A DNA stretch of 34,707 bases from Phycisphaerales bacterium (GTDB lineage: Bacteria > Planctomycetota > Phycisphaerae > Sedimentisphaerales > Anaerobacaceae). The notes below the pieces were generated by a model. That model worked only from the letters and a program-made list of their open reading frames with translations, had not been told where the DNA came from and made no database searches. The stretch spans positions 1 through 34,707 of the forward strand of contig PLLM01000065.1 of NCBI GenBank assembly GCA_003141275.1. Direction: 5' to 3'. Shown here piece after piece: positions 18,063 to 20,450 of this stretch; the first letter of the stretch is position 1; every line of letters starts with the position of its first letter. The translations under genes were made by a program, and so were the position numbers.

Positions 18063-18085
18063 CGGAAGTATATACCTAACGCACA
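18063..18085 (+). repeat. Left terminal inverted repeat of the transposon
   Basis: 23 bp, perfectly complementary to 20428-20450. If the true end starts at GG (18064), as in many IS1595 members, the repeat is 22 bp. Confidence 0.85.
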
Positions 18086-18125
18086 CTAAAAATCTTACCT
18101 AAACCCCCAAAACCCCTTTTTTAGC

Positions 18126-18278
18126 TTAATTTTGAGGTTTCTTCTTCTTGTCCGGCCAACCTTCGGGCGGCTTTTTCTTCTTAAGTGCTTTATTGACAGC
18201 ACGTTGCCAGTCGCCTTCTATCTTTAAATGGTCGGTTTTAGGGCCTCGTTTTTTGCTTTTATTATTGCTCGTCATCAT
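18126..18278 (-). CDS. Small basic protein (50 aa), transposon passenger
   Basis: An ATG at 18278 (or 18275) with AAGGG 6 nt upstream opens a frame of 50 codons ending in TAA. The product is very basic: KSKKRGPKTDHLKIEGDWQR in the first half, then AVNKALKKKKPPEGWP and a Lys-rich tail. The GPK...LKIEGDW...A..KAL.KK.P..GWP layout resembles small uncharacterised proteins I associate with planctomycetes; this is from memory of the pattern, not a search. There are no cysteines or hydrophobic helix, so it is probably soluble and possibly nucleic-acid binding. It diverges from the winged-helix gene at 18406 and lies 40 bp inside the left transposon end. Confidence 0.65.
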   Translation of the reverse strand: MMTSNNKSKKRGPKTDHLKIEGDWQRAVNKALKKKKPPEGWPDKKKKPQN

Positions 18279-18330
18279 TGCTTACCCTTCACTAATCATT
18301 GCTCTTAAAAATAATTATTTTTTATTGCAA

Positions 18331-18390
18331 AATTGCTTGGCGCAATTACGCAAATATGCTATATATCTTAATGGCTTAATGGCTATATAT
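18331..18390 (+). promoter_or_regulatory. Promoter/operator region of the winged-helix gene
   Basis: TTGGCG (18337-18342) and TATATA (18360-18365) are 17 bp apart. The -35 lies within a perfect inverted repeat AATTGC-ttggc-GCAATT (18331-18347). The -10 lies in GCTATATAT (18358-18366), which is repeated at 18382-18390. The arrangement suggests self-regulation by the winged-helix protein or another repressor. Confidence 0.5.
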
Positions 18391-18405
18391 GAAAGGGCCG
18401 AAATT

Positions 18406-18798
18406 ATGAACAATATACAAGAACAAATCAAGCAAGTCGAGGATAAAGTTAAAGACCTGCGAATCAAGCTTATGATTGAGGAATCTGTATTGAAGCGGTT
18501 AAAAGCCATTGAATCGCCCGAAGAGCCACTCTTGCCGTTATCGGATAATGCCCCTATCCTTACTAATGTCCCCCAGCAAGTGACACAGAGCGGAACGTTA
18601 GTCGCAAATATCAAGGCGGTATTAGCTGAAAATGCAGGGTCGATGCACGTCAAAGATATTCACGAAAAACTTAAAGCAATGAGTATTACAACAGACGCTA
18701 AAGCTGGCTTAGCTGCATCAATCGCTAATGCGTTATTTAGGCGTGAAGATATTTTCCAACGGGTTAGACGTGGTATGTATCGTTTAAGAAATATATAA
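18406..18798 (+). CDS. Coiled-coil plus HARE-HTH-like winged-helix protein, transposon passenger
   Basis: 130 aa from ATG 18406, chosen because AAGGG lies 8 nt upstream; the open frame further upstream crosses the divergent promoter. Residues 1-40 (IQEQIKQVEDKVKDLRIKLM and on) are a charged, probable coiled coil for dimerisation. Residues ~64-130 (VANIKAVLAENAGSMHVKDI, then HEKLKAM and ALFRREDIFQRVRRGMYRL) have the helix-helix-wing layout of the HARE-HTH family of winged helices, which are linked to DNA and chromatin functions. It could regulate the element or modify DNA-related functions. There is no enzymatic domain. The family call is by eye and moderately certain. Confidence 0.65.
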   Translation: MNNIQEQIKQVEDKVKDLRIKLMIEESVLKRLKAIESPEEPLLPLSDNAPILTNVPQQVTQSGTLVANIKAVLAENAGSMHVKDIHEKLKAMSITTDAKAGLAASIANALFRREDIFQRVRRGMYRLRNI

Positions 18799-18803
18799 AA
18801 CCT

Positions 18804-18837
18804 GGGCCAGAGAAGCGCGCCAACGCTTATCTGGCCC
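18804..18837 (+). other. Strong hairpin after the winged-helix gene
   Basis: GGGCCAGA-g-AAGCG, loop cgccaa, CGCTT-a-TCTGGCCC: 13 pairs with one mismatch, 5 nt after the stop codon. No U-tract follows, so it is either an RNA stabiliser/processing stem or a weak terminator. Confidence 0.6.
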
Positions 18838-18945
18838 TAACTTAAGGATAACCAAAATGTTTGTCGTTTGCACGGACGCACATGTAATTGATTACCCTAT
18901 ATTTGCAATCCTACCGATTCCACCACCACGGGTCAAGCCCAAAAT

Positions 18946-18985
18946 AGGCCCCCAAGTTAACATTTTGCGATGCGCTTGGGGGCCT
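18946..18985 (+). other. Hairpin immediately upstream of the tRNA
   Basis: An 11-bp perfect stem (AGGCCCCCAAG and complement) with an 18-nt loop ends 8 nt before the tRNA 5' end. It could be a terminator for upstream transcription (TTATCTCTT follows) or a processing stem of the tRNA precursor. Confidence 0.55.
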
Positions 18986-18993
18986 TATCTCTT

Positions 18994-19076
18994 GCGGGAA
19001 TGACGAAACGGCAAACGTGCCAGCGTTGGATGCTGGTGGGCGATTGCCCTTCTGGGTTCGAGTCCCAGTTCCCGCA
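18994..19076 (+). tRNA. Class II tRNA, leucine-like body with UGG anticodon
   Basis: 83 nt, all stems fully paired: acceptor GCGGGAA/TTCCCGC, D-stem ACG/CGT, anticodon stem CCAGC/GCTGG, variable arm GGGC-GATT-GCCC, T-stem CTGGG/CCCAG. Invariant positions are present: T8, A14, G18 G19, A21, T33, TTCGAGT T-loop and a T48 partner for A15. The long variable arm and A73 are leucine-type; serine tRNAs have G73. The anticodon loop is GTTGGAT, which places TGG at 34-36, complementary to the proline codon CCA. G32 and T38 are also unusual. CCA is not encoded. It lies inside the transposon between the winged-helix gene and the 40-aa gene. An automated call would probably be tRNA-Pro(TGG) or undetermined. 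Confidence 0.85.
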
Positions 19077-19092
19077 TTGACTTCTGGCAGAA

Positions 19093-19140
19093 CGGAATGA
19101 CCAGAAATCCAAGTGCAAAATCTATTCCGGACTTTTTTTT
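19093..19140 (+). terminator. Possible terminator after the tRNA
   Basis: CGGAAT (19093-19098) pairs with ATTCCG (19124-19129), followed by GAC and eight T residues (19133-19140). The 25-nt loop is long. A competing TTCTGG/CCAGAA stem lies at 19082-19106. It could also act as an attenuator in front of the 40-aa gene. Confidence 0.45.
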
Positions 19141-19152
19141 AAGGAGCTTACT

Positions 19153-19275
19153 ATGATAAGCTCAAAAAAGGAAGGCCATTGGGTTTATACGACCCATATT
19201 ACTCTGCGTAACGGCAGAGTGATATACGCTTCCAGCTATGGTAAGCGGGCCTTTAGAATTTGGGTAAAATCCTAA
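19153..19275 (+). CDS. Small protein (40 aa), transposon passenger
   Basis: The ATG at 19153 follows a perfect AAGGAG by 7 nt. The frame encodes MISSKKEGHWVYTTHITLRN, then GRVIYASSYGKRAFRIWVKS, and ends in TAA. The Y-T-T-H-I-T-L-R-N-G-R-V-I-Y-A...GK-AF layout looks like a small beta-hairpin protein with a basic, aromatic end; I do not recognise a named family. The coding region itself contains three consecutive hairpins (19179-19195, 19201-19220, 19252-19283), the last spanning the stop codon, so the RNA may have its own role. A strong terminator follows. It lies downstream of the tRNA and convergent with the transposase gene. Confidence 0.65.
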   Translation: MISSKKEGHWVYTTHITLRNGRVIYASSYGKRAFRIWVKS

Positions 19276-19288
19276 ATTCTAAACTGCA

Positions 19289-19333
19289 ACAGTCCCGACT
19301 GGGGTTCACGGCCTCAGTCGGGCTGTTTATTTT
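19289..19333 (+). terminator. Rho-independent terminator of the passenger unit
   Basis: ACAG-t-CCCGACTG, a 13-nt loop, CAGTCGGG-CTGT, then TTATTTT. The 12-bp stem has one bulge. It separates the plus-strand passenger genes from the convergent transposase gene. Confidence 0.8.
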
Positions 19334-19390
19334 GTCGGCCCCTTAACGTTTGTCCCTTGACAGTTTTTGGCTATATTCACTTTTCAAAGA

Positions 19391-20350
19391 TTATGCAGAA
19401 CGGCGTATTGGTTCCCGGTAAGTTAGACGTTTACCCTCCGCCCCCTTGATTGCCTTTGTGATGCGTTCCCCATCGTTTAATTTTCGGGTATCCCATCGAA
19501 ACCCAAATTCAGAAACGTAACGATGCAGGTGTCTTTTGCTTACGGAATGATATGTACCATACAAACCTCTTTTAAGACGTGCAAAGAAGCTCTCCGCCGT
19601 GTTGGTATAAATGTCACCTCGAACGTATTCCCGGCGGCTGTGGCATACTTTTTCGTGTCCGCCCCAAAATACGTTTGTAGCGTTATTATAAAGAGGACTT
19701 TCGTCGGTGATGATTCTTGATGATAACTTAACCTCTTTTCGCAATTCAGTTTTTAACGCTGCGGCGGTTACGTTCGGAATAACGCGCGTCCTAACGCCGC
19801 CATTGCGTTCAACCAAAGCAATCACGGGCGTTTTTGGTGTGCCGCGTCCTCGCAAACTTACCCCGCGAAAGCGCGGCTTGCCGCCTACATACGTTTCGTC
19901 CGCCTCAATCGTGCCTTGCAGCTTTTCTTGCTGTTCTGGCGCAGTCATTGCATAGCGGATGCGGTGCATAATAAACAAAGCTGTTTTGTAAGTTACGCCG
20001 CACTCTCGCCTAATCTGTAAAGCACTTACGCCATTCTTAGAGGAGCAAGCTGCCCAAAAAGCGTGACACCATATTTTAAGCGGCACTCGTGAATCCTCAA
20101 AAACCGTGTCGATGCGAACAGTGTATTGTTTCCTACAATCTAAATCGTGGCAACGCCAAAGGAATCTTTTATTTCGTCCGCCGCTCTTGTCTTTCATTTT
20201 AGATACTTCGATACTGCCGCAATGGGGGCAAGCCGGGTGCTTATCCCAATCCCGCTGTTTTTCCATAAACTCCACAGCCGCCGTTTCGTCCAAGCAAGCT
20301 AATGGCAATTCGCTTACGACCTTATCGATATTTTCAACTTTCTTCTTCAT
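19391..20350 (-). CDS. IS1595-family (ISXO2-like) transposase
   Basis: 319 aa, normal family length. The N-terminus has a zinc ribbon (CPHCGS at ~41-46, WRCHDLDCRKQYT ~25 residues later) and the family's TVFEDSRVPLKIW block. An HTH-like stretch (VSALQIRRECGVTYKTALFI) follows. The DDE/N nuclease domain shows IEADETYVGGK (first Asp), IITDESPLYNN (second Asp) and TNTAESFFARLKRGLYGTYH (third acidic/Asn region). All key residues are present and there is no frameshift, so it may be active. It cuts and joins DNA at the 23-bp ends. The gene has a near-consensus promoter 7 nt upstream of its ATG. Confidence 0.93.
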   Translation of the reverse strand: MKKKVENIDKVVSELPLACLDETAAVEFMEKQRDWDKHPACPHCGSIEVSKMKDKSGGRNKRFLWRCHDLDCRKQYTVRIDTVFEDSRVPLKIWCHAFWAACSSKNGVSALQIRRECGVTYKTALFIMHRIRYAMTAPEQQEKLQGTIEADETYVGGKPRFRGVSLRGRGTPKTPVIALVERNGGVRTRVIPNVTAAALKTELRKEVKLSSRIITDESPLYNNATNVFWGGHEKVCHSRREYVRGDIYTNTAESFFARLKRGLYGTYHSVSKRHLHRYVSEFGFRWDTRKLNDGERITKAIKGAEGKRLTYREPIRRSA

Positions 20351-20356
20351 AGAAGC

Positions 20357-20384
20357 ATTATAACGCTTGACCTCTGTGTGTCAA
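20357..20384 (-). promoter_or_regulatory. Consensus promoter of a probably leaderless transposase mRNA
   Basis: On the minus strand TTGACA (20384-20379) and TATAAT (20362-20357) are 16 bp apart, both perfect. Only 6 nt separate the -10 from the ATG at 20350 and no Shine-Dalgarno is present. CTTGAC/GTCAAG inverted repeats overlap the -35 and spacer and may be an operator. Confidence 0.75.
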
Positions 20385-20427
20385 GTATAAAATTATTATT
20401 TTTGTAAATTATTTTAGCCCCATTTCT

Positions 20428-20450
20428 TGTGCGTTAGGTATATACTTCCG
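20428..20450 (-). repeat. Right terminal inverted repeat of the transposon
   Basis: Perfect 23-bp complement of 18063-18085. Confidence 0.85.

Follow-up and report, generated by a model that had tools for sequence, protein, structure and literature searches.

In a family of IS1595-type transposons, the presence of a tRNA with the anticodon UGG is statistically coupled, as judged by sequence comparison, to the placement of CCA codons in the transposase gene of the same element. In the window, the whole stretch of 34,707 nucleotides that was analyzed, one such element carries a class II tRNA with a leucine body and this anticodon, and CCA, a proline codon, stands at three fixed sites of its transposase. 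We judge it probable, at roughly 60%, that the tRNA is functional cargo of the transposon and that, as a leucine tRNA at CCA, it would act mainly on the element's own transposase and give a mixture of proline and leucine forms. A sequence-only reading of the window had presented the tRNA as an agent of proline-to-leucine substitution in general; the body, the anticodon and the location in an IS1595 element stand. The non-random placement of the matching codon in the element's own transposase gene suggests that the element recodes itself, in place of or ahead of a general proline-to-leucine mistranslation of the host. Going beyond that reading, we find that such cargo recurs with several swapped anticodons, the tRNA of the window being one instance.

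The tRNA is structurally intact. ARAGORN found it as the single tRNA in the window (18993-19077, plus strand, anticodon TGG), and it was missed by the fast mode of Rfam and recovered by the sensitive mode, where the tRNA model matched 18994-19076 with 50.2 bits against a gathering score of 29. Read directly, the sequence folds into a full cloverleaf of class II, with a 7-bp acceptor stem (GCGGGAA/TTCCCGC) followed by A73 and no encoded CCA, a 3-bp D stem, a variable region of 15 nt that contains a 4-bp stem (GGGC GATT GCCC) and the T arm CTGGG TTCGAGT CCCAG. The anticodon loop, GTTGGAT in the DNA and GUUGGAU in the tRNA, does contain UGG together with the rare G32 and T38 that had been pointed out (G32 U33 U34 G35 G36 A37 U38). 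Isotype covariance models derived from tRNAs of planctomycetes gave the element tRNA 74.9 bits for Leu and 51.7 for Ser, with Pro below the reporting limit, in line with the earlier assignment of leucine identity; as a control, the genomic Pro tRNAs scored 97 to 105 with the Pro model and 34 to 41 with the Leu model. The features of leucine identity are thus present (class II arm and A73, with the highest score from the Leu model) and those of a proline tRNA absent, with G1-C72 against C1-G72 in the genomic Pro tRNAs and the Pro model unreported. LeuRS and SerRS largely ignore the anticodon, and G35 and G36 of the anticodon are a determinant for ProRS. For E. coli it is reported that leucine identity needs A73 and not the anticodon, and that G72 is a strong proline determinant (PMC9976931). 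Because bacterial LeuRS needs no anticodon, charging of the element tRNA by LeuRS is to be expected, in keeping with the sequence-only reading.

The host genome (3.05 Mb in 104 contigs, 92% complete) has a normal tRNA-Pro(UGG) alongside tRNA-Pro CGG and GGG and tRNA-Leu CAA, UAA, UAG, GAG and CAG, so that the element tRNA comes as an extra. A sequencing error, which had been named as a possible source of the anomaly, is insufficient as an explanation when the sequences are compared, since about 19 further IS1595 elements, and several different contexts besides, have class II UGG tRNAs of related body.

The tRNA is indeed transposon-borne, as it lies between perfect 23-bp inverted repeats together with an IS1595 transposase (Table 1), whose family membership is given by Pfam PF12762 (1.5e-36) and NCBIfam NF033547 (191.5 bits, cut-off 75). 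The element is present as one copy in its genome, and none of the five other IS1595 transposases of the host genome is accompanied by a class II tRNA. Perfect 8-bp duplications, read by eye, flank most relatives, e.g., L126, L149, L153, L154 and L203 (L-numbers are labels of the loci or elements compared), and the duplication at the window copy is not perfect (left ggcaaaat, right ccctgttt). The two cargo proteins are small, conserved and repeatedly found next to the tRNA; the 50-aa protein had no Pfam family match, and the match of the 130-aa protein to HARE-HTH (E=0.0015) is below the cut-off. A conserved GCCACCAC..GTCAAG motif followed by the hairpin lies directly 5' of the tRNA, both in the window (18900-18993) and in L063, L064, L126 and L127, and read on the opposite strand the two look like a promoter and terminator. 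The sigma-70 promoter is close enough to the transposase ATG to make a leaderless mRNA probable, and a comparable arrangement of promoter and ATG is seen in several UGG elements. A match to a lysine riboswitch inside the transposase gene was below the Rfam threshold and was taken as chance.

Table 1. Features of the IS1595-type element in the window, and long-arm tRNAs of four relatives (numbered by locus)
Feature	Position	Strand	Basis or remark
IS1595-type element, 2388 bp	18063..20450		Inverted ends; one full match in the host genome
Left terminal inverted repeat CGGAAGTATATACCTAACGCACA	18063..18085	+	CGGAAGTATRYAC.. ends also in relatives
50-aa basic protein (KRGPK...GDW..A..KALKKKKPPEGWP), conserved cargo	18126..18278	-	Homologues adjoin tRNA in L064, L065, L069, L075, L077
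130-aa cargo protein, coiled-coil-like N-terminus, weak HARE-HTH match	18406..18798	+	Same-position homologues in L063, L064
Hairpin immediately 5' of tRNA	18947..18985	+	Stem letters vary, pairing kept in L063, L064, L126, L127
Leucine-bodied class II tRNA with UGG anticodon (matches CCA)	18994..19076	+	ARAGORN, Rfam, isotype models
Terminator-like hairpin between tRNA and convergent transposase gene	19294..19322	+	Sequence
IS1595 family transposase, 319 aa (DDE_Tnp_IS1595, Zn_ribbon_IS1595)	19391..20350	-	Pfam, NCBIfam
Site 3: CCA codon, residue 314 (C-terminal tail)	19409..19411	-	CCA in 10/11 core elements having Pro
Site 2: CCA codon, residue 138 (linker before catalytic domain)	19937..19939	-	CCA in 13/14 core elements having Pro
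Site 1: CCA codon, residue 16 (helix 10-20)	20303..20305	-	CCA in 15/15 core UGG elements
Perfect sigma-70 consensus TTGACA-16-TATAAT, 6 nt before transposase ATG	20357..20384	-	Sequence
Right terminal inverted repeat, 23/23 complementary to left	20428..20450	-	Perfect 23 bp
Long-arm UGG tRNAs of relatives	L146 6097-6199; L156 4887-4989; L207 4107-4210; L208 6757-6854		Leu model

Like tRNAs occur within IS1595 ends elsewhere, as had been suggested to look for. A DNA search of the order gave two relatives that share both the tRNA type and the cargo proteins. When 84,980 species genomes were scanned by pattern, about a dozen records (Acidobacteriota, Planctomycetota, Chloroflexi, Gammaproteobacteria and Bacteroidetes) had class II UGG tRNAs, several of which adjoin an IS1595 transposase. 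A transposase-led search, blind to the tRNA, yielded many elements with inverted ends CGGAAGTAT.. and an internal tRNA. In the census of about 1,200 genomes, the tRNAs with leucine bodies have the anticodons UGG (about 19 elements), UGC (four: L153, L155, L221 and L222) and UUA (L154), and those with serine bodies have UGG (L223) and UAC (L128). Four UGG tRNAs of 98-104 nt, with very long variable arms, were missed by ARAGORN and recovered by the Leu model. Of the 26 members of one clade in the transposase tree, 20 carry a tRNA, a fraction somewhat inflated by four of these carriers (L065, L069, L075 and L077) that were located via their tRNA. The carriers L207/L208, L223 and L128 fall outside this clade, which implies several gains or replacements of the tRNA. 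A further search, aimed at a new class so as to test the pattern out of sample, covered mostly genomes already sampled. The viral contigs searched contained no relative of the transposase, and plasmid matches to it were at most 43% identical.

Class II UGG tRNAs with leucine bodies are also present at L071 (5813-5900), L073 (2073-2162), L084 (390-475) and L085 (1853-1934), in Dehalococcoidia, Chloroflexi, Bacteroidetes and Phycisphaerae; no IS1595 transposase was found next to these four, and carriers other than IS1595 may exist for UGG tRNAs. Another pair of IS1595 ends encloses a tRNA-like gene of class I that has C33 and the anticodon ACT (L142, 5988-6061). Besides this class I gene, the odd or decayed copies are L204, with a short arm, and L208, with C33; the cloverleaf is intact in most elements.

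The evidence that links the tRNA to the transposase is the placement of its codon. Over all 21 UGG elements, and with related elements counted as independent in this as in the other column comparisons, CCA makes up 39 of the 41 proline codons at the three sites and 28 of 190 elsewhere (Fisher p=1.4e-23). In elements without a tRNA, the same sites have CCA in 6/14 cases, which differs from the UGG elements with p=9e-5. The hosts use CCA for 3-24% of their proline codons, and under host codon usage the codons at the three sites have a likelihood of 10^-33.8. Ranked by codon fixation, the three columns are 1, 4 and 5 among 117 conserved four- or sixfold columns, so that the tRNA's codon is non-randomly placed in the element's own genes (39/41 against 28/190; ranks 1, 4 and 5 of 117), one feature to be expected of self-recoding of the phage suppressor type. 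The synonymous codons that flank the three sites are variable, and on this ground we rejected the idea that the CCA codons belong to an RNA motif. At nearly all conserved prolines the UGG transposases have CCG, CCC or CCT; in six conserved proline columns CCA was found in 5/72 cases in the first 16 UGG elements and in 21/130 in elements without a tRNA. Over all positions outside the three sites in the updated set there was no significant drop (28/190 against 62/334, p=0.28).

The pattern extends to elements of other descent and has a few exceptions. L207 and L208, which form a separate clade, have three shared CCA sites, namely the linker and two positions of their own, and the UGG element with a serine body (L223) has CCA in the linker too. 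Among four elements found once the sites had been defined (L203, L204, L220 and L229), 11 of 12 sites fit, and L146, with CCA at site 1 and no tRNA according to ARAGORN, was later found with the Leu model to have a UGG tRNA. The exceptions are L156, which has a UGG tRNA and lacks CCA at sites 1 and 3, L070, where a UGG tRNA lies near a distant transposase without the CCA pattern, and L206, which has CCA at site 1 and no detected tRNA. Where site 1 is proline in relatives with another tRNA or none, the codon is CCG in most, including L154 (UUA tRNA) and L150 and L205 (both without tRNA). Relatives without a tRNA have Leu more often than any other residue at site 3, and at sites 1 and 2 they have not Leu but mostly Pro, Arg, Asp, Gln or Glu. 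Modelled with AlphaFold2 at high confidence (pLDDT 90, pTM 0.87), the window transposase has residue 16 in the helix of residues 10-20, residue 138 in the linker that precedes the catalytic fold and residue 314 in a low-confidence tail; a Foldseek search with the model gave only general RNase H-like transposases, e.g., Mos1. Recoding of the cargo proteins was rejected, as their CCA codons are few and without pattern. An upstream CCRCCRCCAC motif pairing with the tRNA, suggested by L060 and L063, fails in L126, where the tRNA is without GGYGG.

Codon identity tracks the anticodon across clades, although the basis for the other anticodons is four UGC elements, one UAC and one UUA. In the UGC elements, the GCA columns are poorer in Ala (0.19 against 0.37, p=0.011) and richer in LIVMF (0.30 against 0.15, p=0.004), with flat controls, and GCA is fixed in 4/4 at one M/L/I/A column. 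Readthrough of TAA in L154 gave no convincing extended gene or target, and insertion of Ser at GTA in L128 was unsupported, with one of three GTA codons at a conserved Val.

In the action that we propose, LeuRS would charge the element tRNA with leucine and the UGG anticodon would let it read CCA, the main target being the CCA codons at the three fixed sites of the element's own transposase. There the tRNA-Pro(UGG) of the host would compete with the leucylated tRNA of the element, and the transposase would be made as a mixture of proline and leucine forms in a proportion set by the dose of the element tRNA. The likely purpose would be control over the amount of a given transposase form, and the sister elements with UGC, and perhaps those with UAC and UUA, would act in the same way on other codons. 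We prefer a mixture over fixed leucine because sites 1 and 2 are often proline or polar in the relatives and plain leucine codons are unused there. The recurrence of leucine and serine bodies with swapped anticodons, in combination with synthetases that ignore the anticodon, counts for reading them as missense tRNAs. We would give about even odds to the wider proposal that this is a transposon family with missense tRNAs (leucine or serine bodies, foreign anticodons) in which a tRNA-dosed sense-codon switch yields two transposase forms per gene, and which evolved more than once with different anticodons.

The same coupling would be expected if a ratchet had led to an obligate private code, with CCA read as leucine and the transposase dependent on leucine at these sites without any regulation. 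Leucine would be more suitable than proline within the predicted helix at site 1, it is the most frequent residue at site 3 among relatives without a tRNA, and the GCA codons of the UGC elements stand at hydrophobic columns. Still, a single change from CCA to CTA would give leucine without a tRNA, yet CCA is kept in 15/15 at site 1, and sites 1 and 2 are not leucine in the relatives, some of which have proline as CCG there, so that we consider a private code unlikely. It is less likely again that the tRNA is charged with proline and serves as an extra tRNA that aids translation of the transposase at CCA. Its body scores as leucine and not as proline, G1-C72 lacks the strong proline determinant G72 (PMC9976931), the host has its own tRNA-Pro(UGG), CCA is rare at conserved prolines, and versions with a serine body or with UGC, UUA or UAC exist, even though the UGG anticodon and A73, the CCA codons of the transposase and the natural occurrence of proline at some of the sites in relatives would all fit such a helper.

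Some of the copies are odd or decayed (L204, L208 and L142), as might be expected if the tRNA did not decode at all and were a regulatory or decoy tRNA-like RNA or a degenerating passenger, the codon pattern being due to shared ancestry. This is very improbable in our view, since the core elements have a median identity of 56% between their transposases and vary at other synonymous sites, the codon follows the anticodon across clades and the cloverleafs are mostly intact. Marginally lower still do we rate general mistranslation directed at the host, as a source of diversity under stress or a burden on rivals, in which the codons of the transposase would be secondary self-protection. Other bacteria are known to have mistranslating tRNAs (PMC11415595), and protection predicts that CCA should be nearly absent at conserved prolines (5/72); it accounts for avoidance, however, and not for fixed CCA in 39/41 cases at three sites.

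Compared with known systems, the elements share DDE_Tnp_IS1595 with a zinc ribbon, the inverted ends and, in most relatives, the 8-bp duplications with IS1595 insertion sequences, some of which have passenger genes, and they differ by their tRNA cargo, whose anticodon is swapped. Allo-tRNAs (Mukai 2017, reviewed in PMC7609411) are likewise bacterial class II tRNAs, with serine identity and non-serine anticodons, and one allo-tRNA pseudogene overlaps a transposon-related ORF, from which a link to transposable elements has been proposed (PMC7609411). Unlike allo-tRNAs, which have 8/4 or 9/3 acceptor domains, the tRNAs described here have the normal 7-bp stem and mostly leucine bodies, and they sit in defined IS1595 elements and are matched by transposase codons. 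The tRNA-ProX of Streptomyces and Kitasatospora, also bacterial and of one identity with another anticodon, mistranslates in E. coli, but it has a proline body with Ala, Asn or Thr anticodons and a paired ProRS isoform, and it is not described as transposon cargo (PMC11415595). The nematode nev-tRNAs resemble the present tRNAs in the long variable arm and are charged with leucine while having Gly or Ile anticodons, but they are eukaryotic and not mobile, with no detectable mistranslation and no known target gene (PMC4300185). Another comparison is with the suppressor tRNAs of phages (PMC7886860, PMC10607447), where a mobile element also has its own tRNA and the matching codon in its own genes; phages reassign a stop codon, whereas the elements here would use a sense codon shared with a host tRNA, with one transposase gene as the target.

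In the literature searched, with subscription journals and preprints largely outside it, no IS1595 element with a swapped-anticodon tRNA is reported, nor any transposon with a sense-codon missense tRNA matched to its own transposase. To our knowledge, the self-recoding known from phages concerns stop codons, and the mistranslating tRNAs known from bacteria have no identified target gene. Here the tRNA and its candidate target lie in one 2.4-kb element, which makes the purpose of natural mistranslating tRNAs directly testable. If the proposed action is true, it would be a new route of self-control for mobile DNA, in which the tRNA that an element carries changes how a sense codon of the element's transposase is read. 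Our findings also show that class II tRNAs with swapped anticodons, which are usually annotated as ordinary Pro, Ala or Val tRNAs, can be mobile cargo.
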